DNA of 64,000 bases, from contig CANMVX010000019.1 in assembly GCA_947501115.1 (NCBI GenBank), positions 1 to 64,000 of the forward strand, given 5' to 3'. Shown in pieces: positions 17,736 to 31,184 of this stretch (within the stretch, counting starts at the first letter, position 1; the number at the start of each line of letters is the position of its first letter). A model generated the notes under the pieces. That model made no database searches and was not told the DNA's origin. It worked only from the letters and a program-made list of their open reading frames with translations. The translations under genes and the position numbers were made by a program. This DNA comes from Haliscomenobacteraceae bacterium. GTDB lineage: Bacteria > Bacteroidota > Bacteroidia > Chitinophagales > Saprospiraceae.

Positions 17736-17772
17736 ATATCGCATTTAAGCCCAAAAGGGTGAGCAAAAGCAG

Positions 17773-17804
17773 AAAGCCTTTACAGTACTGTAAGGGCTTT
17801 TTTA
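17773..17804 (+). terminator. Terminator after glgP
   Basis: AAAGCCtTTACAGTACTGTAAgGGCTTT followed by T-run. Confidence 0.85.
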
Positions 17805-17812
17805 TATATCAA

Positions 17813-17838
17813 GGCGTTAGGGTGGTTGCATCTTTTTG
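17813..17838 (+). repeat. Island intergenic repeat, site 1 (right-end variant)
   Basis: ggcgttagggtggttgcatctttttg; shares GTTAgggNNTTGCATCTTTTTG with the other sites. Confidence 0.5.
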
Positions 17839-17929
17839 TTTTTGGAGACATATATTTTTTAATAAGCTGCAACTTTATATATTTGTTATTATAGTTGGAT
17901 TTCTAAAAAATCAATTCACCCTTTTAAGT

Positions 17930-18457
17930 ATGACAAATTATTTAATTGTTCCCGGTTTGGGAAATTCAGGTCCAGAACATTGGCAAACCTATTTCCAAAA
18001 CTCCGCTCCCAATTTCTTCAGAATTGAACAAACCGATTGGGATACACCTACTTGTGAAGACTGGATTAAAAATATGGATGCTATGGCAACATCATTTGAC
18101 TTATCATCTGTCGTTTTAATTGGACATAGTTTAGGATGTTCAACCATAGCGCATTGGACAGCCAAGTATAAAAGAAATATTAAAGGGGCAATGCTTGTAG
18201 CTCCGAGTGACCTGGAAGCAACAAATTACACTTTCCCAACAAAAGGATTTTTACCCATTCCACTAGATAAATTAAATTTCAATTCTATTGTTGTAGCCAG
18301 TTCAAATGACATTTGGGTTTCTTTAGAGAGAGCAAAGTTTTTTGCAGAAAACTGGGGAAGTGAATTTATAAACATGGGTGATGCTGGGCACATAAATGCA
18401 TCTTCTGGCCATACTAATTGGGAAGAGGGATTGACGATTCTAAAAAAATTGGGATAA
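17930..18457 (+). CDS. RBBP9/YdeN family alpha/beta hydrolase
   Basis: MTNYLIVPGLGNSGPEHWQTYF, GHSLGCSTIAHW; start moved from the ORF track to the internal ATG. Confidence 0.85.
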   Translation: MTNYLIVPGLGNSGPEHWQTYFQNSAPNFFRIEQTDWDTPTCEDWIKNMDAMATSFDLSSVVLIGHSLGCSTIAHWTAKYKRNIKGAMLVAPSDLEATNYTFPTKGFLPIPLDKLNFNSIVVASSNDIWVSLERAKFFAENWGSEFINMGDAGHINASSGHTNWEEGLTILKKLG

Positions 18458-18470
18458 TTCAACCCTACAT

Positions 18471-18520
18471 TTTCCTGTTTGTCACATACTCAATCATCGC
18501 TTTATAGTTGCATCTTTTTG
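18471..18520 (+). repeat. Island intergenic repeat, site 2
   Basis: tttcctgtttgtcacatactcaatcatcgctttatagttgcatctttttg. Confidence 0.75.
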
Positions 18521-18560
18521 TATTTTCTTTAATTATCTTTAGAACAAATATCCCTTTTTT

Positions 18561-19376
18561 GTGATAAAGACCATTGCCCCAACTTCTCCAATGCTGAAAA
18601 AGTATATTGATTGCTTCTATATTTATGAAGGCAAGTCCAATTCCGTCTTCAATTATGTAGCATTCCCTCATTTTAACACAGGGCTTTCATTTTTCAAGGG
18701 AGCATCGGTTCATAGACAAAATTGGAATCTTCAAATTTCAGAAAATACCAATGTGGGAGTACATATTGAAATACTTGGAAAGTACACGACGCCCGTACTG
18801 GTAGAATATAAAGGACAATTAAGTGAAATATCTATGGTATTCAAACCATTAGGATTGAATCGATTTTTCAAGGACAATTATCTTTCCTTAGCGCCAAGAT
18901 TTTCACAAGAATTAACGAATGATGTCTGGAGTCAATTTGGAGAAAGTTTATTTTCAAGTAATGATGATATTAGTAAAATAGAATCATTTTTGCTTTCACA
19001 ATTTATTGATAATCAAAAATTATCCAGTATTGAAAATTCGTTGAAATTATTAGAAAATAGTAATGAGCAATTCCCTATATCTACTATTGCAAATAAGGTA
19101 GGACTTAATCTTAAAACATTTCAAAGGCATTTTCAGAAACATATTGGTTGTTGTCCAGTGGAATATCGGAGAATTTTCAGATTTAGAAGCTCATTATCTA
19201 ACAAATTAAATAATTCCCATTGGAAGAATTTAACCGAAATTACTTACGAAGAAGGTTATTACGACCAGTCTTATTTAATCAAGGAGTTTAGAAAAATTAC
19301 AAATCATAATCCTAAAGACTTTTTTAAGTCTGCGAGTAAAGTGGATGGCGATAAGATTATATGGGAAATTAAGTAG
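18561..19376 (+). CDS. AraC-family helix-turn-helix transcriptional regulator
   Basis: LNLKTFQRHFQKHIGCCPVEYRRIFRFRSSL...GYYDQSYLIKEFRKITNHNPKDFF. Confidence 0.85.
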   Translation: MIKTIAPTSPMLKKYIDCFYIYEGKSNSVFNYVAFPHFNTGLSFFKGASVHRQNWNLQISENTNVGVHIEILGKYTTPVLVEYKGQLSEISMVFKPLGLNRFFKDNYLSLAPRFSQELTNDVWSQFGESLFSSNDDISKIESFLLSQFIDNQKLSSIENSLKLLENSNEQFPISTIANKVGLNLKTFQRHFQKHIGCCPVEYRRIFRFRSSLSNKLNNSHWKNLTEITYEEGYYDQSYLIKEFRKITNHNPKDFFKSASKVDGDKIIWEIK

Positions 19377-19443
19377 TGTCTTAAAAGTACAATTTTGAGT
19401 AATGCCTATGATTTAATTTTGAAATAAATTAAACGACAACTCA

Positions 19444-19686
19444 ATGAAAACACCATTTAACAAATTCCTTTACATTGGATTTTTACTCTTAGGACTGTTT
19501 CAAGCATTATTTTCTAAAGATTACATTCAAGCAGCTTCCTCACTTGGGATTGGCTTGGCTTTTGACCCTTTTGACACGGAACAAAAGTGGAATGACAGAC
19601 CAACCTGGCAAAAGGCAGTTTTGATTATTCACCTGGCCCTGGTCGCAGCAATGTTTGGATTTGGTATTGGTTTGAATGACAAATAG
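19444..19686 (+). CDS. Small hypothetical membrane protein
   Basis: 80 aa ORF, two hydrophobic segments, intact. Confidence 0.6.
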   Translation: MKTPFNKFLYIGFLLLGLFQALFSKDYIQAASSLGIGLAFDPFDTEQKWNDRPTWQKAVLIIHLALVAAMFGFGIGLNDK

Positions 19687-19721
19687 ACTTTCTGCAAACT
19701 TGCATAAAGGTTAATTATTTA

Positions 19722-19772
19722 ATTTCCTGATAGTTACATACTCTGTCATCGAGTTATAGTTGCATCTTTCTT
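19722..19772 (+). repeat. Island intergenic repeat, site 3
   Basis: atttcctgatagttacatactctgtcatcgagttatagttgcatctttcttg. Confidence 0.75.
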
Positions 19773-19861
19773 GAAAAAGGGGAGCCACACTGGACAAGCC
19801 ATTAGCAATGATGTCTTTTTCTTTGTCTAAAGGTGTGTTAGGGGATTTACGTCAATTATTT

Positions 19862-19945
19862 TCCAAAATGGGGTCTTTCAAAAAAGATGTTCTTATAAAT
19901 CTTTGTTGAATGTAATTCACTCAACAATGGACATATTGTACCAAA
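19862..19945 (+). repeat. Direct repeat copy A: orphan copy of the crp-type leader and first codons
   Basis: About 5 mismatches over 84 nt, counted by eye, against 22364-22447; includes ATGGACATATTGTACCAAA then breaks. Confidence 0.9.
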
Positions 19946-19990
19946 CTGGATAATCAATTCACACCATAAATTACCGGAATATGCAGCGCT

Positions 19991-20237
19991 GTGGAACCGA
20001 TTTTAAGAGATAAAAGTTATTCGCTTGCCATTGTTATAACAAATTTAACGGAGAATTTGCAAGCAGAGGAGAAAGAATAAGTACTTAGGTAACAGGCTTT
20101 GCGTTCAGGCGCTCCAATTGGAGCTTAAATTTGTGAGGCAGAATATTGCATTGAAAGAAGTCAACGAAACAGAATACTGGCTTTGTATTTTGAAGGCTAC
20201 CAATTATATTTTGGCAAATTTATTTGTCAGTTTGTAA
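19991..20237 (+). pseudogene. Four-helix-bundle protein (23S rRNA IVP family) pseudogene
   Basis: VEPILRDKSYSLAIVITNLTENLQAEEKE*VLR*QALRSGAPIGA*ICEAEY, then shifted frame LKEVNETEYWLCILKATNYILANLFVSL. Confidence 0.75.
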
Positions 20238-20273
20238 TAATGAACTACATTTATCTCTATTCGCTTTCAAAAT

Positions 20274-22058
20274 ATGAATTATACAGCAGAAGAATTATTT
20301 GAAATACTGAATGATACAGATGAATGTCCATGGATAGGAGCCAAAGGCATAAGTGATACAACAACTTCTATAATGGTAACAGTGTGTTCTTATGCTAATG
20401 AACCCGGTTTAGGTGGCGGTTATATTTTAATGAGCATTAGTGCAGATGAATCTGAAACAGCAGAGGCTCATTAAAAGATTGACCAGATGCCTGATCCTGA
20501 TAAGTTACAAAGCGACATTGCAACACAATGTGCCAGCATGTTTAATATGCCAGTTCGTCCGCAAATGGTTATAGAAAAAATCAATGGATTACCGGTGTTG
20601 AAAATTTGGGTAGATGAACTGCCTGCCAAACAAAAACCAATCTACTTTACCAAAAAAGGATTACCTAGTGGAGCTTTACGTAGAATAGGTAGCACCGATC
20701 AGCACTGTACCGATGATGATATGCACGTGTTTTATCAGGATACAGGCAGCTACGACCAAACACCTGTGAAAGGAACAACCATTGCCGATGTGGATGAAAA
20801 TGCATTGAAGCGTTATCGGGTTTTGCGTGAAAAAGTAAATCCCGCTGCTGAAGAATTAACCTACAACGACTGTGAATTGTTGGAATCATTAGGTTGTGTG
20901 AATAAAGAAAACCCAAATGAATTGAATATTGCCGGACTGTTGCTGTTTGGTAGTTCAAAAATACAACGCAGCACTTTCCCAATGCTTCGTGCCGATTACA
21001 TTCGTGTGCAAGGTAACACATGGGTTGAAAATCCAGATGACCATTTTATTACTATCGATATGAGAGGTTCTCTCATTTTAGTATTATATCGTTTAATAGA
21101 TGCCATCAATGCCGATTTACCAAAAGGATTTTTACTGCCGGAAGATGATGTACAAGCCACTCCAACAGGTCTGCCTATGAAGGCACTTCGAGAGGCTATC
21201 GTAAATGCTTTAATGCACCGTTCTTATCGTGAACATCGCCCAACACAAATTATTCGCTATGACAATCGTATTGAGATAACAAATCCAGGGTTCTCTTTAA
21301 AATCAGAAGAAAAATTAGGACAACCGGGAAGTGAAACCAGAAACCCTTTTATTGCCGCTGTATTTCACGATACCAATTTGGCGGAAACAAAAGGTTCAGG
21401 TATCAGAGCCATGCGCAGGCTGATGGAAAAAGCCCATTTGGTTCCTCCAACATTTGAATCTAGCCGTGATAATAATGAATTTACATCCCGTTTGCTTTTA
21501 CATCATTTTTTAAATGCGAATGACTTATATTGGCTCAGACAGTTTAAAAATTTTGACCTGTCAGATAGTCAAAAACAAGCAATCATTTTTGTAAGGGAAG
21601 TCGGTGCCATAGATAACACTACCTACCGCCAAATGGCTGATTGTGACACCCTTAAAGCTAGCAACGACTTACGATTTTTAAAAACACAAAACTTATTTAT
21701 TTCCAGAGGAAAAGGAAAGGCGACTTATTATATAGCGGGCATTGATTTAAACACACCACCTCCGGATTTAAACACACCACCTCTGAATTTAAGCACACCA
21801 CCTCTTGAGATTTTGGATAGAATAAAAGCACTAAATAAAAGGGAGCATGACAAGGGCAAGATAGAGACCATTATCTTGGATTTATGCAATTTAAGGGCAA
21901 TGAAAGCTTCTGAGATTGCAGGATATTTTCAAAAAGAGGAATCTTACTTCAAAAGAAAATATTTAAGCAATCTTATTTCAGAAAAAAGATTAAAATATCT
22001 GCATCCAGAAATGATTAATCATCCAGAGCAGGCATACCTAACCAATAATCGGGCTTAA
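20274..22058 (+). pseudogene. AlbA_2/ATP-binding (RecG-related) protein interrupted by one in-frame TAA
   Basis: ORFs 20274-20474 and 20487-22058 are in the same frame; ...SADESETAEAH*KIDQMPDPDKLQSDIATQC reads through a homologous domain with a single TAA. Confidence 0.8.
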
Positions 22059-22060
22059 TT

Positions 22061-22190
22061 ATGACAGAATATATCAATGTAGAGAAAACTTTTTGTAGTT
22101 AAACTGCAATAAAAACCTTTAAAGAAAGTATTAAGGCCATAAACAATACTGCCGATAGCGGGGAATGGTTAACCGATTACAAATTCCACT
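22061..22190 (+). pseudogene. Remnant of type I restriction enzyme HsdR N-terminus
   Basis: ATG 3 nt after the AlbA_2 stop: MTEYINVEKTFCS*, then FKESIKAINNTADSGEWLTD, resembling HsdR starts of the MTEYINVEKPF...AIKAINTT...WLTD type (from memory). Confidence 0.45.
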
Positions 22191-22363
22191 TTGCTCCAGA
22201 TTACATGTACAATTTCACTGTTTTTCGTCAATTTTGGTGAAATTTCATATTTGCTAACTAATAAGAAAAATATAAATGACCAAGAACCGGGACAAATATT
22301 AATAGGGAACTTTATTGAAAAGGGGGTGATTGACAAGATTATGAACTTACAATATATGCAATT

Positions 22364-22447
22364 TCCATAATGGGGTCTTTCAACAAAGATGTACTTATAT
22401 ATCTTTGTTGAATGTAATTCACTCAACAATGGACATTTTGTACCAAA
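22364..22447 (+). repeat. Direct repeat copy B: leader and start of intact crp-type gene
   Basis: Matches 19862-19945. Confidence 0.9.
22379..22432 (+). promoter_or_regulatory. Leader with alternative hairpins / operator-like inverted repeats upstream of crp-type gene
   Basis: TTCAACAAAGAT(22379-22390) N10 ATCTTTGTTGAA(22401-22412) perfect 12 bp inverted repeat; TCAACAA(22423-22429) can also pair with TTGTTGA and overlaps the ATG. Confidence 0.6.
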
Positions 22448-22998
22448 GGTTTATAGACCATTATTCCGGTAGTCAACAACTAACCGACCATACGAAAGCA
22501 GAAATTTGCAATCATTTGTCAATCTTACATTTGAATAAAAAGCATGTACTTATTAAAGAAAACCAACAGCACGATTTTGCTTATTTTGTCATAAAAGGGG
22601 CAGTGAGAAGTTATTTCCTGAAGGATGGTATTGAAGTGAATACCTGGTTTGCTTTAGAAAATGATATGGTTGGGTCATTGCAAAATTTTAATGACAAGCC
22701 TTCGAAAGAAACCATTGAGCTGGTTGAAAATAGTACCCTTATTTCAATCAATTTAAAAAAGTTAAAACCTTTAATGTTTTCAAATATTCAAATTTCCAAT
22801 TTTATAAATGCCGTAATTGAAGAGTACGCCCTATTTTTGGAGGAAAAGATTTACTTTTCTCAAATGATGCATTCAATTGATAAATATCTCATTCTATTAG
22901 ACAAAGAACCGCAACTTTTCCAACGAATACCATTAACATATATCGCTTCCTTTCTTGGCATTACCAGAGAAACATTGAGTCGATTGCGAGCAAAATGA
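22429..22998 (+). CDS. Crp/Fnr family transcriptional regulator
   Basis: MDILYQRFIDHYSGSQQLTDHTKAEICNHL...FLGITRETLSRLRAK. Confidence 0.85.
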   Translation: MDILYQRFIDHYSGSQQLTDHTKAEICNHLSILHLNKKHVLIKENQQHDFAYFVIKGAVRSYFLKDGIEVNTWFALENDMVGSLQNFNDKPSKETIELVENSTLISINLKKLKPLMFSNIQISNFINAVIEEYALFLEEKIYFSQMMHSIDKYLILLDKEPQLFQRIPLTYIASFLGITRETLSRLRAK

Positions 22999-23057
22999 TT
23001 TTGTGACATATATCAAATGAAATCATTTTTCAGCATCCCATTTTTGCAGTCTAAAAA

Positions 23058-24158
23058 ATGATACAAAAGATGAATGTAACCACGCAAACCAACCGACTTC
23101 TATCTATTGACCTGGCCAGAGGCATGGCCGTATTTTTTATGATCGCGGTACATACGCTTGAAGTTTTTGCAAACCCGGAAGTAAAAAATTCTATATTTGG
23201 ACAGATCATAGAATTTCTGGGAGGGCCACCAGCTGCACCTGTATTTATGACTTTGATGGGATTTTCATTTATCTACTCAAGAAAATCAGAATTAAAACCT
23301 AAACTTTTACGTGGGTTTAAAATATTTTTAACCGGATATATTTTAAATATCATAAGGGGGGTCATTCCATTTACCCTTTCTACTTATCTTAATATGGATA
23401 TTGCAAAAACATTTCAGATAGAGCCACTGAATGCGTACACCATTTTCACCATAGTAGATATTTTACAATTTGCTGGAATTGCCCTAATGATAATGGCAAT
23501 CATTCAAGCGCTTAACATCAATAAGTACCTTGTTTTATTATCCGCATTTGTAATGAGTATGATTTCACCAATTCTCTGGGGAATAAAGTTAGATATACCA
23601 ATAATAGACCAGGCATTAGAACTGATTTGGGGGGACCAGCCAATAGAATGTAGCTTTATTGCAAATAAAATCGCGTTTCCTATTTTCCCCTGGCTCACAT
23701 TTCCTCTATTAGGGATGTTTCTTGGAGAAACGGTAAAAAATTCAAATGATTCCAATAGAATATTTAAACACTTTGGTCTTGCCGGAATATTAGTTATATT
23801 ACTTAGCGTGGCCATTTCTTATCAAAATTTTGCATATCATTTCAATGACTATTATCATAGCCGTCAAGGTGCTATGTTATTTATGTGTGGGTTTGTACTA
23901 TTTTGGCTATATCTCAATACATTAATTGTAGACAATTTACCTGAGAATAGACTTTTTAAATTACTATTTAAATGGAGCAAAGGCGTGACAAATATTTACT
24001 TTGTTCAATGGATAATTATTATTTGGAGCATTGCCTTTTTTGGCATTAATAGTAGCTCATTTGCCACTACTATTTTATTAATTTTGGTCTTCACGGCAGT
24101 ATCACATTTTACCAACGAATATATCATTTACATTAAAAAAAGATTCGTAAAGCAGTAG
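23058..24158 (+). CDS. DUF1624/heparan-alpha-glucosaminide N-acetyltransferase-like membrane protein
   Basis: RLLSIDLARGMAVFFMIAVHTLE...GGPPAAPVFMTLMGFSF. Confidence 0.75.
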   Translation: MIQKMNVTTQTNRLLSIDLARGMAVFFMIAVHTLEVFANPEVKNSIFGQIIEFLGGPPAAPVFMTLMGFSFIYSRKSELKPKLLRGFKIFLTGYILNIIRGVIPFTLSTYLNMDIAKTFQIEPLNAYTIFTIVDILQFAGIALMIMAIIQALNINKYLVLLSAFVMSMISPILWGIKLDIPIIDQALELIWGDQPIECSFIANKIAFPIFPWLTFPLLGMFLGETVKNSNDSNRIFKHFGLAGILVILLSVAISYQNFAYHFNDYYHSRQGAMLFMCGFVLFWLYLNTLIVDNLPENRLFKLLFKWSKGVTNIYFVQWIIIIWSIAFFGINSSSFATTILLILVFTAVSHFTNEYIIYIKKRFVKQ

Positions 24159-24228
24159 AATGAAAAATAGCATAATGCCAAGGACTTTGAAGTTTTAATG
24201 GTAAACCTGGAAAAAGTTTAATCCTTTA

Positions 24229-24283
24229 AATTCCTGATAGTTACAAAATAAACCATTGCCTTATGTTTACAGCTTTTTTTCTA
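24229..24283 (+). repeat. Island intergenic repeat, site 4 (diverged)
   Basis: aaattcctgatagttacaaaataaaccattgccttatgtttacagctttttttc. Confidence 0.5.
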
Positions 24284-24305
24284 AGGAAAGTAAATATTAA
24301 GCATT

Positions 24306-24488
24306 TTGAACTTTATTTCTAACTTCAACTCATTAAAAATGAATACAATGTTATTCCCCAAAATATCGCTGGCACTTAATATTCTTGTGTTCATTCCTGT
24401 TTACTCAGGAATACTACTTAAGGCCAACTTGGCTGTTGATTCGTATGGAATTGAAACGCCAGCACGAGGCATTTTGCTTTCTTTATGA
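24306..24488 (+). pseudogene. Truncated small membrane protein
   Basis: MNTMLFPKISLALNILVFIPVYSGILLKANLAVDSYGIETPARGILLSL*, looks like an N-terminal fragment ending abruptly. Confidence 0.4.
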
Positions 24489-24645
24489 AAATTACAGATA
24501 CATCTTTTAAATCTCAAATAAACTCCCTTTTTTAACTTTTTTTTTCACAATCTATATGTAATATTGCTTTGGACAAAGCTTCATGTCGTCCAAATGACGC
24601 CTATTTGTCCATAATTTATCCATTTACTCATGTCATATTTGCAAT

Positions 24646-25026
24646 ATGGAATTTGGAGCAAGACTAAAAGAGATTAGAACAAGTTTGAACATCTCTCAAA
24701 AAGAACTTTCAGAACAGACAGGTTTAACCCTTAGAACGATTCAAAGAATTGAGAATAAGGAGGTAAAGCCAAGTCTTTACTCATTAAAAGTTATTGGAGA
24801 GGTATTGAAAACCGACTTGTCTGAATTTGTTAAACCATCCAATACCAAACCCTATGAATTTAATTTAACCCTTAAAATTACAGATATGAATCAATTTCTA
24901 AATGACTTAAAAGCCTTAGTAATTAACCACTCTAAAACAATTTTCATTATTTTTTTAGTAGTTTATCTATTCACAAGTTATGCTGATATTAAATCGGGCA
25001 TAATGGATGCCTGGAATGGTAAGTAG
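24646..25026 (+). CDS. XRE-family helix-turn-helix protein with C-terminal TM segment
   Basis: LKEIRTSLNISQKELSEQTGLTLRTIQRIENKEVKPSLYSLKVIGEVL. Confidence 0.85.
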   Translation: MEFGARLKEIRTSLNISQKELSEQTGLTLRTIQRIENKEVKPSLYSLKVIGEVLKTDLSEFVKPSNTKPYEFNLTLKITDMNQFLNDLKALVINHSKTIFIIFLVVYLFTSYADIKSGIMDAWNGK

Positions 25027-25091
25027 CATCTTGAAAAATCAATAAATATGAAAACCAATCTTAATTTAACAATATATTATTAAATTAATTT

Positions 25092-25616
25092 ATGCGAAAG
25101 TTATTTATCATTTACTTTTTATTCGTTTTGTTTCCAATGACGGGTATGTCACAGGAAACAAAAGTACAGGTAACCGAAAAAGTTTCCATCAGCTTCCCTG
25201 GAAAACCCGATGTTCAAAATATACAGATTGGAAGTACGCTTTATGTGGTAAAATTAGCCGATGGAACTGCTAATTTTAATGTTGTCGTTCAGAACTTATT
25301 GGACATTGGACAAACTACAAAACAGATTAAGTCACAACAGTTAAATCCTGGTTTCTGGGAACAGATGGAACTTTCTCTTATTGCACCGTATGGCTCTGAA
25401 ACGAAGGTTTTAGCAAGAGAAATCAAAAAGATTGGCAGTAAAGAAGTTTTAAGCCTTGCATTTAGTGCAGTGATTAATGGTATGAACAGAGAGATAAACT
25501 CTTATTTCTTCATAGAAGGTGTTCATAGTATTAATATCGTGCACTACAAGAGAGCTGATAGTGCTTCAATCGAATTAAAAAACAATTTTTTTAATTCGAT
25601 TAAGATATTGGATTAA
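25092..25616 (+). CDS. Hypothetical exported protein
   Basis: Signal peptide (MRKLFIIYFLFVLFPMTGMSQ), 174 aa. Confidence 0.6.
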   Translation: MRKLFIIYFLFVLFPMTGMSQETKVQVTEKVSISFPGKPDVQNIQIGSTLYVVKLADGTANFNVVVQNLLDIGQTTKQIKSQQLNPGFWEQMELSLIAPYGSETKVLAREIKKIGSKEVLSLAFSAVINGMNREINSYFFIEGVHSINIVHYKRADSASIELKNNFFNSIKILD

Positions 25617-25651
25617 AACTTCAAAATTTGATTTTAAGAAGTATATCCCCT

Positions 25652-25707
25652 TGATTTTTTCATAATTACATGCTCTATCATCGTATTATGGTTTCATCTT
25701 TCGTTTG
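25652..25707 (+). repeat. Island intergenic repeat, site 5
   Basis: tgattttttcataattacatgctctatcatcgtattatggtttcatctttcgtttg. Confidence 0.7.
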
Positions 25708-25714
25708 TTAATGG

Positions 25715-25800
25715 AGCTACCCCAGGCAATCCATCCCTCAGCTAACGGATGGATTTTTCTTTGTCTATCAGCGAGTTAGAATTACTGCATCTTTTGACTA
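25715..25800 (+). repeat. Right half of composite repeat, site 6, including hairpin and GTTAG...TGCATCTTTTG end
   Basis: aatccatccctcagctaacggatggatttttctttgtctatcagcgagttagaattactgcatcttttg; parallels 19770-19850. Confidence 0.5.
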
Positions 25801-26014
25801 TTTCAGGTGGACATTTTCTACATTTTAACAACTATTCATTGTTTCATTTTTCGATTTAATATCCAGTTGCTTATAAAATTATATCTGAAAAATCATTTCA
25901 GATTAGGTATATATCATTTCACACGATTTTCAACGGAGTTCATCAATATAATTATTACTACTATTATTTCTTGTAGAAGTTTGTAGTGTTCAATCATATT
26001 TTAACTTTTACAAC

Positions 26015-26329
26015 ATGAAAAAAGTAATTTTATTTATTGCATTCTTAACGACTAGCCTTGCAGCTAATGCGCAGAGTACAGAAAAATATTACTCAACAAA
26101 AAGCAAATTTTATTACTCATTTGCATGGGGGCTTTTAACGTCCAAAAATTTCCCAAAGGACAAATCAGCAGTATTTGAATTTGAAAAATCTAAGGATTCA
26201 AATTCATTATCAGAGCCGCCCTCTAATAGCACAAAATATGAGCAAAAAAGTATTCTTTGGGGAGCTATCCAATGGACAGAAAAGAAAAATAATGTTTCAT
26301 CAACTACATCCGAAAGCAATGGAAAATAA
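26015..26329 (+). CDS. Small secreted protein, unknown function
   Basis: Sec signal MKKVILFIAFLTTSLAANAQ; overlaps next gene by 11 nt. Confidence 0.55.
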   Translation: MKKVILFIAFLTTSLAANAQSTEKYYSTKSKFYYSFAWGLLTSKNFPKDKSAVFEFEKSKDSNSLSEPPSNSTKYEQKSILWGAIQWTEKKNNVSSTTSESNGK

Positions 26330-27149
26330 TTTTATTCATTCCGCCAGTTTAGGGAAGAATGAATGGTGGCGTTATATATTGACTATTTTGACCACTGTAT
26401 TTACCATCGTCCTAACTAATTTATTGATCCGTAAATTACTGCCAACCATAAAAAAATTATTTCCTGATAGTGATTTTGGTAAAGATTTGGGCACTTACAG
26501 TCTTGTTTTATTGGTATTCGGTATGGCTCTTTTCGCATTTCTGGTTGCCGCAAGGAAATTCCATCATAGACCAATAATGTCTTTTATTAGCGAGGATCGT
26601 AAATTCAGATTCAAATACTACTTTTTAGGATTCATTTCGTGGGCATCCCTACTATTTATTGGAAATTTAATTACAGATTTTGGAAGTTTTAAAGCCTTCA
26701 TCCAAAATTTCAACCTCGCAGAATTTTCATTTCTACTTTTAATTGGCTTTATTTCCATAGGTATTCAGTCCTTTTTTGAGGAAATTGTCATTCGTGGATA
26801 TTTTTTACAAGGTCTTCACCTGTGTATCAGGAATATTTTAATTCTCATACTTTTAAATGCGTTAATTTTTGCTATTTTACACTTGGGCTATGGCATAGGA
26901 AGTTTTCTTTCTTCCTGGCTATTTGGGATTGCGTTTACCATAATTGTAATTCTGCAAAAAAGAATAGAATTTGTATCGGGCGCACATAATGCCAATAATT
27001 TATTATTAGCCCTTGTGTTTTTGGATTTATCTGATGTAAGTAAAGAAGAATTTAGCTGGTCAATTAATTGGACTGAATTTAGCTTACACATTGCTGCTTT
27101 ATTACTGCTAATTGGATTGGTTTATAGGTTTTTAAGCAAAAAAGAATGA
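26319..27149 (+). CDS. CPBP-family intramembrane metalloprotease
   Basis: FFEEIVIRGYFLQG...ILHLGYGIGSF...GAHNANN (EExxxR, HxxxG, HxxxN motifs); start chosen at MENNFIHS. Confidence 0.8.
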   Translation: MENNFIHSASLGKNEWWRYILTILTTVFTIVLTNLLIRKLLPTIKKLFPDSDFGKDLGTYSLVLLVFGMALFAFLVAARKFHHRPIMSFISEDRKFRFKYYFLGFISWASLLFIGNLITDFGSFKAFIQNFNLAEFSFLLLIGFISIGIQSFFEEIVIRGYFLQGLHLCIRNILILILLNALIFAILHLGYGIGSFLSSWLFGIAFTIIVILQKRIEFVSGAHNANNLLLALVFLDLSDVSKEEFSWSINWTEFSLHIAALLLLIGLVYRFLSKKE

Positions 27150-28117
27150 GGATAAGAGTAATATATCACCTTGCATTTTGGGGATTCTTTACTTTTCTTT
27201 TTTATCAGCAGAACCAGGGAGCGAATGCACTTGAGTACCTTAAATGGCTTACCGTTCTTGGAATTTCTGCCATAATTGTTTATGTAAATCTTTATATACT
27301 TTTTCCAAATTATTTTTTCAGGAAAAGATATTTGATTTATTCATTATTTCTAATTCTTCTTATTGGCTTAGGTGCTTTTTCTCTAAGATTAATTTTTAAC
27401 ACAGGACATTCTACTTTTGCAACAACTTTTTTTCAACATGGTATAAATCTATTTTTCTTTATTATCATCACAAGTTCTTTTAAATTTTTTAGAGAATATA
27501 AACGTAAACAAGCGTTGTTAATATTGGCTGAAAACGAACAACTCAAAATGGAGCTTTCTTTATTAAAGTCCCAGGTGAACCCGCATTTTTTATTTAATAC
27601 ACTGAATAACTTATATGGGTTAATCATACAAAATCAAAACATAAAAGCTTCAGAAATTACGCTAAGGCTTTCTGATTTAATGCGTTATATACTAAAAAGC
27701 AGTAAAGAAACAAAAGTAAACCTGCAAGATGAGATCAAATTTATTGAAGATTATTTGACTATAGAAAAAATTCGGCTAACAAATAATGTTGAAATTAAAT
27801 TTGAATTTTCCGGAATAGATAAAGATGTTTTAATCGCCCCTTTGTTATTCAATCCAATGGTGGAAAATGCTTTCAAGCACGGATTGCAGAATATTTCACT
27901 GGATAATTACGCACACTTTTTTTTATCCATACAAGGAAATGAGGTATTTTTTGAGGTTGAAAATTCAATTGGAAGAAAAACAGATAAACAAACCAACAGT
28001 GGAACAGGCTTAATTAATCTTCGAAAAAGATTGCAACTAATCTACCCTCAAAAACATCAATTAGAAATAAATAAAACAGAAACTAATTTTAAAGCGATTC
28101 TATACGTGGAATTATGA
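27146..28117 (+). CDS. LytS-like sensor histidine kinase
   Basis: LSLLKSQVNPHFLFNTLNNLYGLI His_kinase motif; ENAFKHG N-box. Confidence 0.9.
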   Translation: MRIRVIYHLAFWGFFTFLFYQQNQGANALEYLKWLTVLGISAIIVYVNLYILFPNYFFRKRYLIYSLFLILLIGLGAFSLRLIFNTGHSTFATTFFQHGINLFFFIIITSSFKFFREYKRKQALLILAENEQLKMELSLLKSQVNPHFLFNTLNNLYGLIIQNQNIKASEITLRLSDLMRYILKSSKETKVNLQDEIKFIEDYLTIEKIRLTNNVEIKFEFSGIDKDVLIAPLLFNPMVENAFKHGLQNISLDNYAHFFLSIQGNEVFFEVENSIGRKTDKQTNSGTGLINLRKRLQLIYPQKHQLEINKTETNFKAILYVEL

Positions 28118-28839
28118 AATATCAATGTTTAATAGTGGATGACGAGCCAGTTGCTCAACAAATATTGGAAAAATATATCAATCAAATTGAAGCACTTCAT
28201 TTAATAGCAAAATGCAGTAATGCTTTTGAAGCAATGAATATTTTGCATCAGGAAAAAGTTGACATCTTATTTCTGGACATTAAAATGCCTTCACTTTCCG
28301 GGATAGAAATGCTTAAAACCATACAAAATCAGCCTAAAGTAATTTTAACAACGGCCTTTTCAGAATTTGCTGTTGAAAGTTATGAATATGGCGTTATTGA
28401 TTACCTACTCAAACCCATTGCTTTTGAACGTTTTTTGAAAACAGTAAATAAAATCCTGCTACCCCAAAATATAGATTTTAATAATGGCAAGGCTGACGAA
28501 AAGCTTACTATACAACCCACTTTTATTTTCTTTAAGGCAAACAAAAAAATCTTTAAGTATTATTTAGTTGATATACTTTTTATTGAAGGAAGTGGCAATT
28601 ACATTAAAGTCCATACCCAGAACGATAAGCCTCTTATGGTTTTAGATAAATTAACGGATTTACTGGAGAAATTACCTCCCAGACAATTTTTAAGAGTGCA
28701 TAAATCATTTATTATTAATATTTCACACATTATAAAGATAGAAGGGAATGTCCTATTTATCAGAGATAGAGAAATTCCAATTTCAAATACATTTAGGAAA
28801 GATTTAGATGAGGTGATACAGCGTAATCTCCGCCTATAG
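28114..28839 (+). CDS. LytTR family response regulator
   Basis: CLIVDDEPVAQQILEKYI...DILFLDIKMPSLSGIE; C-terminal LytTR domain. Confidence 0.93.
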   Translation: MKYQCLIVDDEPVAQQILEKYINQIEALHLIAKCSNAFEAMNILHQEKVDILFLDIKMPSLSGIEMLKTIQNQPKVILTTAFSEFAVESYEYGVIDYLLKPIAFERFLKTVNKILLPQNIDFNNGKADEKLTIQPTFIFFKANKKIFKYYLVDILFIEGSGNYIKVHTQNDKPLMVLDKLTDLLEKLPPRQFLRVHKSFIINISHIIKIEGNVLFIRDREIPISNTFRKDLDEVIQRNLRL

Positions 28840-28869
28840 ATTGACATAAAGTTTAAACCTTAATACCCT

Positions 28870-28915
28870 ATTATCCGAATACTTAATCAACGTATTATAG
28901 TTGCATTTTTTTTTA
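28870..28915 (+). repeat. Island intergenic repeat, site 7
   Basis: ttatccgaatacttaatcaacgtattatagttgcatttttttttac. Confidence 0.65.
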
Positions 28916-28932
28916 CATTGTAACCTTTTTAT

Positions 28933-29187
28933 ATGAATGACCTCAGAGAATTAAAAAACTTCGGGCCATATATGGTCAAAATATTGAATTTGATTGGAAT
29001 ATATTCTAGAGCAGACCTAATGGCATCAGATTTCAAAAAAATCAAAAATGAATTGGTAAAGGTTGGCATCAAACCGCATCTTAATATTTTTTACTCCATT
29101 GAAATGGGATTGCAAAATAAACCCTGGAATAAAATTTCTTCTGAGGAAAAATATGAAATCAAGAGAATTTTAAGTGATTTGAATTGA
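28933..29187 (+). CDS. TfoX C-terminal / helix-hairpin-helix domain protein
   Basis: LRELKNFGPYMVKILNLIGIYSRADL... Confidence 0.65.
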   Translation: MNDLRELKNFGPYMVKILNLIGIYSRADLMASDFKKIKNELVKVGIKPHLNIFYSIEMGLQNKPWNKISSEEKYEIKRILSDLN

Positions 29188-29255: not shown

Positions 29256-31184
29256 TTAAGGCTCTAAACGTTCAATGAGCCTTGCGGAAATTCGGAGAAA
29301 ATCCATTTCCGTTATGATACCTATCAGTTCTCCATCCGTAACCACTGGTAGGCAGCCAATTTTCTTTTCGCGCATGATATGAAGCGCTTCTATGATTGAT
29401 TTTCCAGGCTCAATAACAATCGGGGAACTAATCATGATATCTTCAACCGTTTGCTGTTTGTTTCCCTCTTTTATGGAAATACCTTTTTGGCTATAAAACC
29501 TAAGGAGTAACCTGGAAGTTATTAATCCACAAATATTACCCTTTTGATCTTCCACGGGCATATATCTGATCTTTCTCCAATCCATTAATTTTGCTACCAA
29601 CTCAATGAGGTCATCTTTCGAGACAGTAAAAAGATCTGTTTGCATAAATTCCTCGACCCTCAAATTCCCCGGTCTATAATCCAGCAAATCTTTCAATTCC
29701 GGTAATTCCCAGGTATGGACAGGTTTACCCAAATTCTGATTTTCATAAATGGCGCTAGTCATTACAGTAACTGCCTCGTCCATACTTGTTTCTTTTTTCA
29801 GCTTGGTAAAAGCGCGAAGCTGCCATCTTGCACCATTCAAATTTAATTTTGCTCGTTGAGAAATAATATCCATATAAAAATCAATATCACCTGCATTTAT
29901 CCCCTGAGCGGCAAGGCCTTCTTTTGCCAAAGGTATAAGCTCTTCATTTACAAGATCGGTTACGGTAATTTTCTTATCTTTAAACCAGGTAAATTTCGAG
30001 TCAATTCCAAAACGAGCTGCTTTCTCAAAATTATCTCTTACATCCTCCCAGCTCATTTTTTTTCTGATATCTCCCCATTCTTTCGCACAGCCAACAACTG
30101 CGCCCAACCAAAGTGCCGCATTTGCTATTTCATCAACTACGGTAGGACCTGCGGGTAATACTCTGTTTTCTATTCGAAGATGAGGTTTTCCGGTATCACT
30201 AATACCATAACATGGTCTATTCCATCTGTAAACTGTAGAATTATGTATTTGCAACGCACTTAATTTGGGTATTTTTCCTTCCAGGACAGCTTCCATAGAA
30301 TTTTCATACGTCTCAGGATAAATTAAAGACCTGAAGCGAGCAATGTCTTCCCGATAAATATCAAGAATGGAATTATGAACCCAATCGGAACCAAAATTAA
30401 CTCTTGGACTTCTTTCCCGCATGTGTTCATTAGTAGTTCTTACGTCTAATGCCTGTTGAAATAGCGCAATTCTGGATTCATGCCATAAACGACGACCGAA
30501 AACAATGGGAGAATTAGCCGAAATACCCAAAACAGGAGCAGTTAATGCTTGAGCTATGTTATAATAAGGGACAAAATTTTCCGGATCAACTTGCAAATGA
30601 ACTTGAAAACTTGTATTTGCCGCTTCCAAAAGAGGGGTATGACTTCTAAGTAATAATTCATCAATGCCTTGAATTCTTAATTCAAAAGCTTGTCCCAATA
30701 ATTGGGCACTAAGTGATTCCACCAATAATTTATACCTTTCCCGGGGTGTTAAATTATGAGACTCCAGATCATTTTTATGTAGTGTTGGTAAAATACCCGT
30801 AAGTAATATATCTGATTGAAATGGAGACAATGCCCTTTTAATAATGTCTAACTTATCTTTTGTTTCTACCTCCATATCCTTAAGGGCTGAGCCTGTAAAG
30901 ATGCGTGGATCAAGATTTATTTCCAGATTAAATTTTGCCAATTCCGTATCTAACCAGGGCATATCTTTAAGTAAATCAATAATTTCCAACGCGATAGGCG
31001 CTGCCTTAAAAGATTTTTTTTGAATAATGCACATTTCTTGTTCAGCACCTATTCTGGTTACCCCTTTTTCAAAAATGGAATTATGTAACATATACTCCAA
31101 TGCTTGCATATCCTGCAATAGATTGGAAACGAATTGTTGCCTGCCCGGTTCTCCTTTTGCTTTTTTGAATTTTTTCTCACCCAT
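29256..31184 (-). CDS. Glutamate-cysteine ligase-family protein with C-terminal CBS pair
   Basis: IGAEQEMCIIQ...NLEINLDPRIF; C-terminal VKDDLIELVAKLMDWRKIRYMPVED...MREKKIGCLPVVTDGELIGIITEMDFL. Confidence 0.85.
   Translation of the reverse strand: MGEKKFKKAKGEPGRQQFVSNLLQDMQALEYMLHNSIFEKGVTRIGAEQEMCIIQKKSFKAAPIALEIIDLLKDMPWLDTELAKFNLEINLDPRIFTGSALKDMEVETKDKLDIIKRALSPFQSDILLTGILPTLHKNDLESHNLTPRERYKLLVESLSAQLLGQAFELRIQGIDELLLRSHTPLLEAANTSFQVHLQVDPENFVPYYNIAQALTAPVLGISANSPIVFGRRLWHESRIALFQQALDVRTTNEHMRERSPRVNFGSDWVHNSILDIYREDIARFRSLIYPETYENSMEAVLEGKIPKLSALQIHNSTVYRWNRPCYGISDTGKPHLRIENRVLPAGPTVVDEIANAALWLGAVVGCAKEWGDIRKKMSWEDVRDNFEKAARFGIDSKFTWFKDKKITVTDLVNEELIPLAKEGLAAQGINAGDIDFYMDIISQRAKLNLNGARWQLRAFTKLKKETSMDEAVTVMTSAIYENQNLGKPVHTWELPELKDLLDYRPGNLRVEEFMQTDLFTVSKDDLIELVAKLMDWRKIRYMPVEDQKGNICGLITSRLLLRFYSQKGISIKEGNKQQTVEDIMISSPIVIEPGKSIIEALHIMREKKIGCLPVVTDGELIGIITEMDFLRISARLIERLEP

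Follow-up and report, generated by a model that had tools for sequence, protein, structure and literature searches.

How does an array of small gene modules arise when its members lie on one strand, are separated by a shared intergenic repeat and have no integrase beside them? The question is posed by a 64,000-nucleotide (nt) stretch ("the window") of contig CANMVX010000019.1 from a Haliscomenobacteraceae bacterium (assembly GCA_947501115.1), in which an initial annotation had described a motif recurring at five sites in the same orientation behind the conserved gene glgP, read it as the boundary between modules of a cassette array, and suggested that it might be attC-like or another substrate of recombination or replicative slippage. 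We compared this 4.7-Mb source genome (G000) with six congeners (G001–G006; C and L denote contigs and loci throughout) and with more distant genomes. Sequence comparison shows a unit structure, GGGAGC boundaries, anchoring at tRNA-Asn, presence or absence of whole units, reassortment, and a gene pool that extends across orders of Bacteroidota. The island probably consists of small integrative cassettes arrayed at the 3' end of tRNA-Asn or at look-alikes of it, set there by a recombinase acting in trans and subsequently reshuffled by homologous recombination and decayed.

A clustered repeat and modules that come and go

The repeat measures about 64–78 nt and has five plus-strand copies within the island at 17.8–29.2 kb (at 18444, 19696, 24203, 25628 and 28837 in a 77-nt register), which are 61–73% identical when the 19696 copy serves as reference and are all recovered by a sequence-only model of the copies (E=3e-18 to 1e-13). 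Only two more strong copies exist in the rest of the genome, both on contig C101. Because the copies are clustered on one strand with only two others in the genome, the motif is neither random nor a genome-wide signal. Short versions of the motif are not diagnostic by themselves, since TTGCATCTTTTT, a 12-base piece sought with one mismatch allowed, occurs 8 times in the window versus 2.4 expected. As annotated, every intact gene from 17.9 to 29.2 kb lies on the plus strand and no integrase is present in the window; the right-end variants reported at 17813 and ~25770 were located at 17816–17838 and 25776–25795, with a third at ~19837.

Wherever both sides are assembled, the island is flanked by glgP and by the gene at 29256–31184, and its repeat-defined content differs in modules in five congeners and is almost nil in one (G003). 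The locus is without the hydrolase and AraC units in G006 and without XRE to LytTR in G005, has additional GNAT and other units in G001, and carries HxlR (G002) or a glycosyltransferase (G004) beside glgP. In G003, glgP ...TTCAAGCCTGAAAGGGGAGC (GGGGAGC) is joined straight to the TfoX leader terminator and a TfoX remnant; this near-empty locus has two versions in the draft, C281 (L291) and C359 (L292), which suggests a strain mixture. Such different content at one locus means that modules are present or absent as units, as expected of a cassette array in which the repeat is the unit boundary, and the synteny is not that of an unshuffled island. The DUF3536 locus was considered as a clean empty site and rejected, its flanks being rearranged.

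Some of the differences reflect simple decay: G001 and G006 have TfoX with an internal deletion, and the window retains only a stub of a 123-amino-acid (aa) gene of G005. These remnants, which are deletions at the glgP locus, fit an ancestral gene cluster of the genus that has diverged by deletion only while the repeat decayed. That history is hardly credible, as it conflicts with the genome-specific cassettes (GNAT, HxlR, glycosyltransferase) and with the same cassettes occurring in other orders at other loci.

Arrays that begin at the end of tRNA-Asn

Inspection of what precedes GGGAGC where no core does led to tRNA ends: ARAGORN identified 15 complete tRNA-Asn(GTT) genes before distinct arrays (at least 15 arrays), and no other tRNA there. 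The 3' end of this tRNA is the same (G)GGAGC that forms the unit boundary, and the first unit lies directly behind the intact tRNA. Acceptor stems are host-specific (...TTCGGGAGC in Pedobacter, ...CTCAGGAGC at L216, ...TTGGGGAGC at L174), and because each host retains its own stem, the junction must fall at the very end of the tRNA. Moreover, 25 junctions on the host or tRNA side can each be paired with a core-side junction of the same cassette, the agreement starting at GGGAGC or a few bases later (e.g., L254, at tRNA-Asn, and L258, at a core, agree at 97% over 220 nt from base 1). An array start at a tRNA 3' end holds for the family; the window locus has only a look-alike site behind glgP (TTCAAGCCCGAAAG/GGGGAGC), and C101 of the same genome has another (TTCAAGGTCATCTAT/GGGAGC), to be compared with the tRNA end TTCAAGTCCTGAAG/GGGGAGC. 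The main tRNA-Asn of the genus, ending CTGAGGCGC, is unoccupied. Behind glgP, congeners have a common left side up to GGGGAGC, followed by several different leaders.

GGGGAGC is followed by an intrinsic terminator at 101 of the 115 borders of core type and at all 23 of tRNA type, as compared with 170 of 1410 random positions (12%), a rule that would make sense if a tRNA gene has to keep a functional 3' end and a terminator when a unit is inserted. The terminator noted earlier between glgP and the first repeat site belongs to the repeat system itself.

Further tRNA-Asn loci carry tyrosine recombinases. At L258:7171–9456 and L152:3694–6805, the 3' half of a tRNA-Asn (from the anticodon loop) has a 410-aa enzyme nearby; the arrangement probably reflects an integrative element that interrupted this tRNA on the upstream side of the cassettes. 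L303 (G002:C168), which could be a contaminant contig, holds a second tRNA-Asn, one of the type common in Bacteroidota, and a 404-aa enzyme lies directly behind the terminator of this tRNA.

One gene pool across orders of Bacteroidota

A search model built from seven repeat copies gave strong matches among 120 relatives only within the genus, where they were clustered and occurred in all six congeners, with few and weak matches elsewhere; among 396 genomes drawn evenly from the phylum, it matched one other. The distribution of the motif is therefore not random. The exact core (21 fixed bases) occurs in 105 stretches in 84,980 species genomes, where ~0.1 would be expected under uniform base composition. 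Among the matches listed, 79 of 80 host titles are compatible with Bacteroidota (two read only "uncultured bacterium"), and hosts include Aquirufa, Sandaracinomonas, Pedobacter, Sediminibacterium, Flavobacterium, Saprospiraceae and others; the exception, L202 (JALRKT010000035.1), lies in a genome labelled Bacilli and is probably a mis-binned contig. All copies are on the same strand in 36 of 36 multi-copy loci (i.e., those with at least two copies). Fourteen array genomes have 1–10 copies each, which for the most part form one or two clusters at unrelated positions; in one genome, copies separated by 14 kb lie on different strands.

Genes shared by arrays of different orders, named here from by-eye sequence resemblance and not from profile searches, comprise a 193-aa protein, a 251-aa protein, an NTF2-like protein, AraC plus an 80-aa protein, TfoX-C, TfoX-N plus a DUF1059-like protein, XRE, SDR, VOC, GNAT and, in reverse orientation, a HigBA-like toxin–antitoxin pair. 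This sharing suggests that cassettes moved between genera, and Pedobacter puniceum has a single cassette in a genome without any other core.

Variant forms exist: a second core type, GGCTGCAACATTCCACCTATTAAGGGAGC (L216:7488, L253:5130, L258:4632, L261:16838), differs in its left arm and has the same border and terminator, and a third border type, TTGGTTCGAGAATAGACCACCTTGGGGAGC (L156:2627, L166:7626, L089:8846), is like a T-arm plus acceptor end.

Genes on either side of the core reassort

Pairs among 160 non-redundant copies, which are not mutually independent, share the upstream gene only in 169 cases, the downstream gene only in 111 and both in 12, a pattern that is that of free reassortment within one shuffled gene pool. 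In similarity profiles, the flank left of the core tracks the upstream gene, sequence to the right of GGGGAGC tracks the downstream gene, and the mid-core tracks neither; right after GGGGAGC, upstream linkage stops and downstream linkage starts (positions 26–29: about 0 versus about 0.2). The core is close to linkage equilibrium with either neighbor, and breakpoints fall within it as well as at its left edge and on its right side. Profiles and in-core exchange together place the unit border at GGGGAGC and add homologous exchange within the core. The median unit length is 1,054 nt.

The main rival explanation is homologous recombination alone: the core would be a portable homology arm for double crossovers after natural transformation, and no dedicated recombinase would be needed. 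It accounts for the mosaic core, with its breakpoints and near equilibrium, and agrees with the arrays having no linked recombinase. It does not account for tRNA anchoring, that is, for arrays that start at the GGGAGC of tRNA-Asn in unrelated genera or at look-alike sites, nor for the lone cassette of Pedobacter puniceum, and we regard it as rather unlikely.

The same data bear on whether the repeat is an ordinary regulatory or terminator element (leader RNA, small RNA or promoter) in front of unrelated genes. Nearly every copy has a terminator after it, and TATAGTTG is similar to TAnnTTTG, the Bacteroidetes -7 element; neither the spacing nor the -33 element is conserved, and the promoter reading was rejected. 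An element of this kind is highly improbable given that the few copies per genome are clustered in one or two same-strand arrays, that neighbor genes reassort, that the repeat is rare in the phylum and that an Rfam search returned no match.

The repeats are very probably not attC sites

Could the repeats be attC sites of a Bacteroidota integron, or of an integrase-less cluster, that were moved by an IntI-type enzyme? The same-strand array, the ~1-kb units and the typical cassette genes (GNAT, NTF2, VOC, TfoX, HigBA-like) would all fit; moreover, most cores carry a RYYYAAC-like GTTYAAC and the genus has an integron-type integrase. However, on neither strand is the core more stably folded than its shuffled versions (z -0.16 and -0.15; for two copies from the window, -0.47 and +1.06), and the cassette junction is GGGGAGC, shared with the 3' end of tRNA-Asn, and not G^TTRRRY. 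The integrase adjoins other sites and misses positions 181–238 of the integron-integrase model, and most array genomes lack it or have a broken version. No integron integrase was found beside the array in the window or the array loci, and no copy of the window repeat near the integron-type integrase locus. A long (G^TTAGGG) and a short (G^TTGCATC) attC form were ruled out by folding, lack of L''/L' covariation and linkage, and pairing between core and leader tail showed no convincing covariation. An integron origin is therefore very unlikely and the attC-like interpretation is not supported; the integrase that was to be sought elsewhere does exist in the genus, but beside other attC-like sites and not beside arrays.

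That integron-like chromosomal locus occurs at G000:C16:1–3700 (L042), G006:C50 (L119), G004:C9 (L120) and G000:C151 (L044), with remnants in G001, G002 and G005. Its integrase matches NF040815 (222 bits), and a conserved attI-like ..TATATGGTAG^TT (GGTAG^TT) is followed by different first cassettes and long imperfect attC-like inverted repeats; contigs often end right at this locus.

How the cassettes might move

Under the integrative-cassette reading, a unit would consist of (G)GGGAGC, an intrinsic terminator, (a promoter), one or a few genes, and the 64–78 nt core ...TTGCATCTTTCGTCTGTAA followed by (G)GGGAGC. A circular cassette would be inserted at the tRNA-Asn(GTT) 3' end (acceptor stem, G73, C), or at a look-alike such as that behind glgP, by a site-specific recombinase, probably a tyrosine recombinase, provided in trans by another element. 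Every new unit would regenerate GGGAGC and the terminator, so that units stack in tandem and in one orientation. Homologous recombination between cores would then swap core segments, and slippage between TTGCATCTTT repeats would delete GGGGAGC and the terminator, as seems to be the case in the window.

Several points weigh against this scheme. Pairs whose upstream genes are at least 97% identical are still ~20% different in the left half of the core (in L256:7587 and L151:3942, for example, the upstream sequence is 98.8% identical and the core about 15% different); homologous exchange is thus clearly at work, and might by itself explain everything. One leader behind glgP is common to G000, G004 and G006 and precedes different genes, and some changes must therefore occur inside the leader and not at GGGAGC. 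The stretch common to the tRNA end and the unit end is only 5–7 nt (GGGAGC), and we infer the circular form and the movement of cassettes from sequence comparison. Finally, a search among array loci and array genomes identified no recombinase for the arrays: the majority of array genomes have no intact XerA/integron-type integrase like that of C16, and the 404-aa enzyme beside tRNA-Asn in G002 matches 5 of 49 genomes, four of them at only 29–34% identity.

The 410-aa enzyme of L258 and L152 was likewise rejected as the mover, lying outside the array and beside a partial tRNA-Asn. Three core patterns, searched with a viral helper in mind, had 0 matches in viral contigs, and a by-eye comparison with Xer/dif-like sites gave no match. 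More tentatively, the cassettes may constitute a distinct analogue of the integron, in which a phylum-wide pool of ~1-kb cassettes is served by a dedicated trans-acting recombinase that reads the core and the very end of tRNA-Asn, and in which the cassettes' own terminators keep the tRNA functional.

The window island is an old, decaying array

The array in the window is an old, decaying example of such cassette arrays. Its features are as follows.

17746–17764, + strand: host-side insertion site behind glgP, TTAAGCCCAAAAGGGTGAGC, a look-alike of the tRNA-Asn 3' end; TTCAAGCCCGAAAGGGGGAGC in other congeners
17765–17838, + strand: cassette 1 leader, with intrinsic terminator (17774–17803) and tail GTTAGGGTGGTTGCATCTTTTTG (17816–17838)
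17933–18457, + strand: cassette 1 gene, serine hydrolase (PF06821); in G001 and G005, not in G006 and G003
18457–18518, + strand: repeat copy 1, shortened
18591–19376, + strand: AraC-family regulator gene of cassette 2; the cassette recurs in G001, G002 and G005, and Aquirufa antheringensis has a homologue
19444–19686, + strand: cassette 2, 80-aa membrane protein, recurring in the shared gene pool
19708–19770, + strand: repeat copy 2 (core)
19779–19785, + strand: unit boundary GGGGAGC
19797–19850, + strand: Crp cassette terminator hairpin and leader tail GTTAGGGGATTTACG; in G006, the same tail and Crp are directly behind glgP
19860–19945, + strand: truncated 86-nt duplicate of the Crp-gene start, 94% versus 22362–22447
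20487–22058, + strand: RecG-C-terminal-like ATPase gene (PF13749) within a ~2.4-kb insertion; not in arrays of G001, G005 and G006
22405–22998, + strand: Crp-family regulator
23058–24158, + strand: acyltransferase
24215–24277, + strand: repeat copy 3, degenerate
24646–25026, + strand: XRE regulator; similar proteins in arrays L257 and L263
25092–25616, + strand: 174-aa protein without Pfam match
25640–25703, + strand: repeat copy 4
25713–25795, + strand: boundary GGAGC (25713), terminator, leader tail GTTAGAATTACTGCATC
26175–28839, + strand: cassette of CPBP protease (PF02517), LytS-like kinase and LytTR regulator (the latter two names from the initial annotation)
28850–28911, + strand: repeat copy 5, shortened; 28914–28930 resembles what would remain of the 3' arm of a leader terminator
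28933–29187, + strand: TfoX-C-like gene of the last cassette; present with an internal deletion in G001 and G006 and as a remnant in G003 and G005

Only the copies at 19708 and 25640 keep the continuation into GGGGAGC or GGAGC and a terminator; in the shortened copies (18457, 24215 and 28850), the core runs directly into the next unit. Copy 1 apparently lost GGGGAGC and its terminator by deletion between the TTGCATCTTT of the core and the TTGCATCTTT of the next leader; a related leader in G005:C59, before AraC-leader-like sequence, is still long. Copy 5 looks like the same kind of deletion, though less clearly. Replicative slippage between these direct repeats plausibly explains the shortened copies but does not explain the array. 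The 86-nt direct repeats at 19860–19945 and 22362–22447 bracket the ~2.4-kb insertion that bears the RecG-C-like ATPase gene.

Relation to known systems

Tandem integrative elements and satellites in tRNA genes accrete at the tRNA 3' end, with a helper recombinase presumed in trans. The arrays have this accretion in common with classical tRNA-gene elements, which copy a longer piece of the tRNA than the 5–7 nt seen here. The closest known kind are the "additive" flexible genomic islands with tRNA direct repeats, described in Actinomarinales (PMC7771536) and as fGI-2 of "Ca. Methylopumilus" at tRNA-Lys (PMC10872708). As in those islands, small cassettes lie at a tRNA in aquatic bacteria, are exchanged between genera and vary by gain and loss from one close relative to the next; a piece of the tRNA recurs at the insertions in those islands, and the short stretch at the unit ends here may be its counterpart. 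Unlike in those islands, the stretch in common with the tRNA is only (G)GGAGC, with a conserved 64–78 nt core before it and a terminator after it; a single tRNA species (Asn-GTT) is involved, units are ~1 kb, one pool spans several orders, and look-alikes that are not tRNAs are used. Tycheposons (4–200 kb) are also tRNA-anchored cargo elements but have their own tyrosine recombinase (PMC10872708), whereas the units here are ~1 kb and without one. With integron cassettes and clusters of attC sites lacking integrases (PMC8618304, PMC9668308), the arrays share short same-strand units that end in a conserved site, a common pool and the lack of an integrase in most clusters; they differ in having no folded attC, no G^TT junction and no IntI or attI, and in having their own terminators and a tRNA target. 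A search of the open-access literature, outside of which most subscription journals lie, returned no description of this Bacteroidota system.

In freshwater Bacteroidota, these arrays make visible a cassette-exchange system that is comparable in layout to the integron and that has a directly searchable signature: the core, GGGGAGC and a terminator. They tie a hypervariable locus to the end of a tRNA and make it testable how cassettes move without a linked integrase, and they predict that contacts this short may also serve other tRNA islands.

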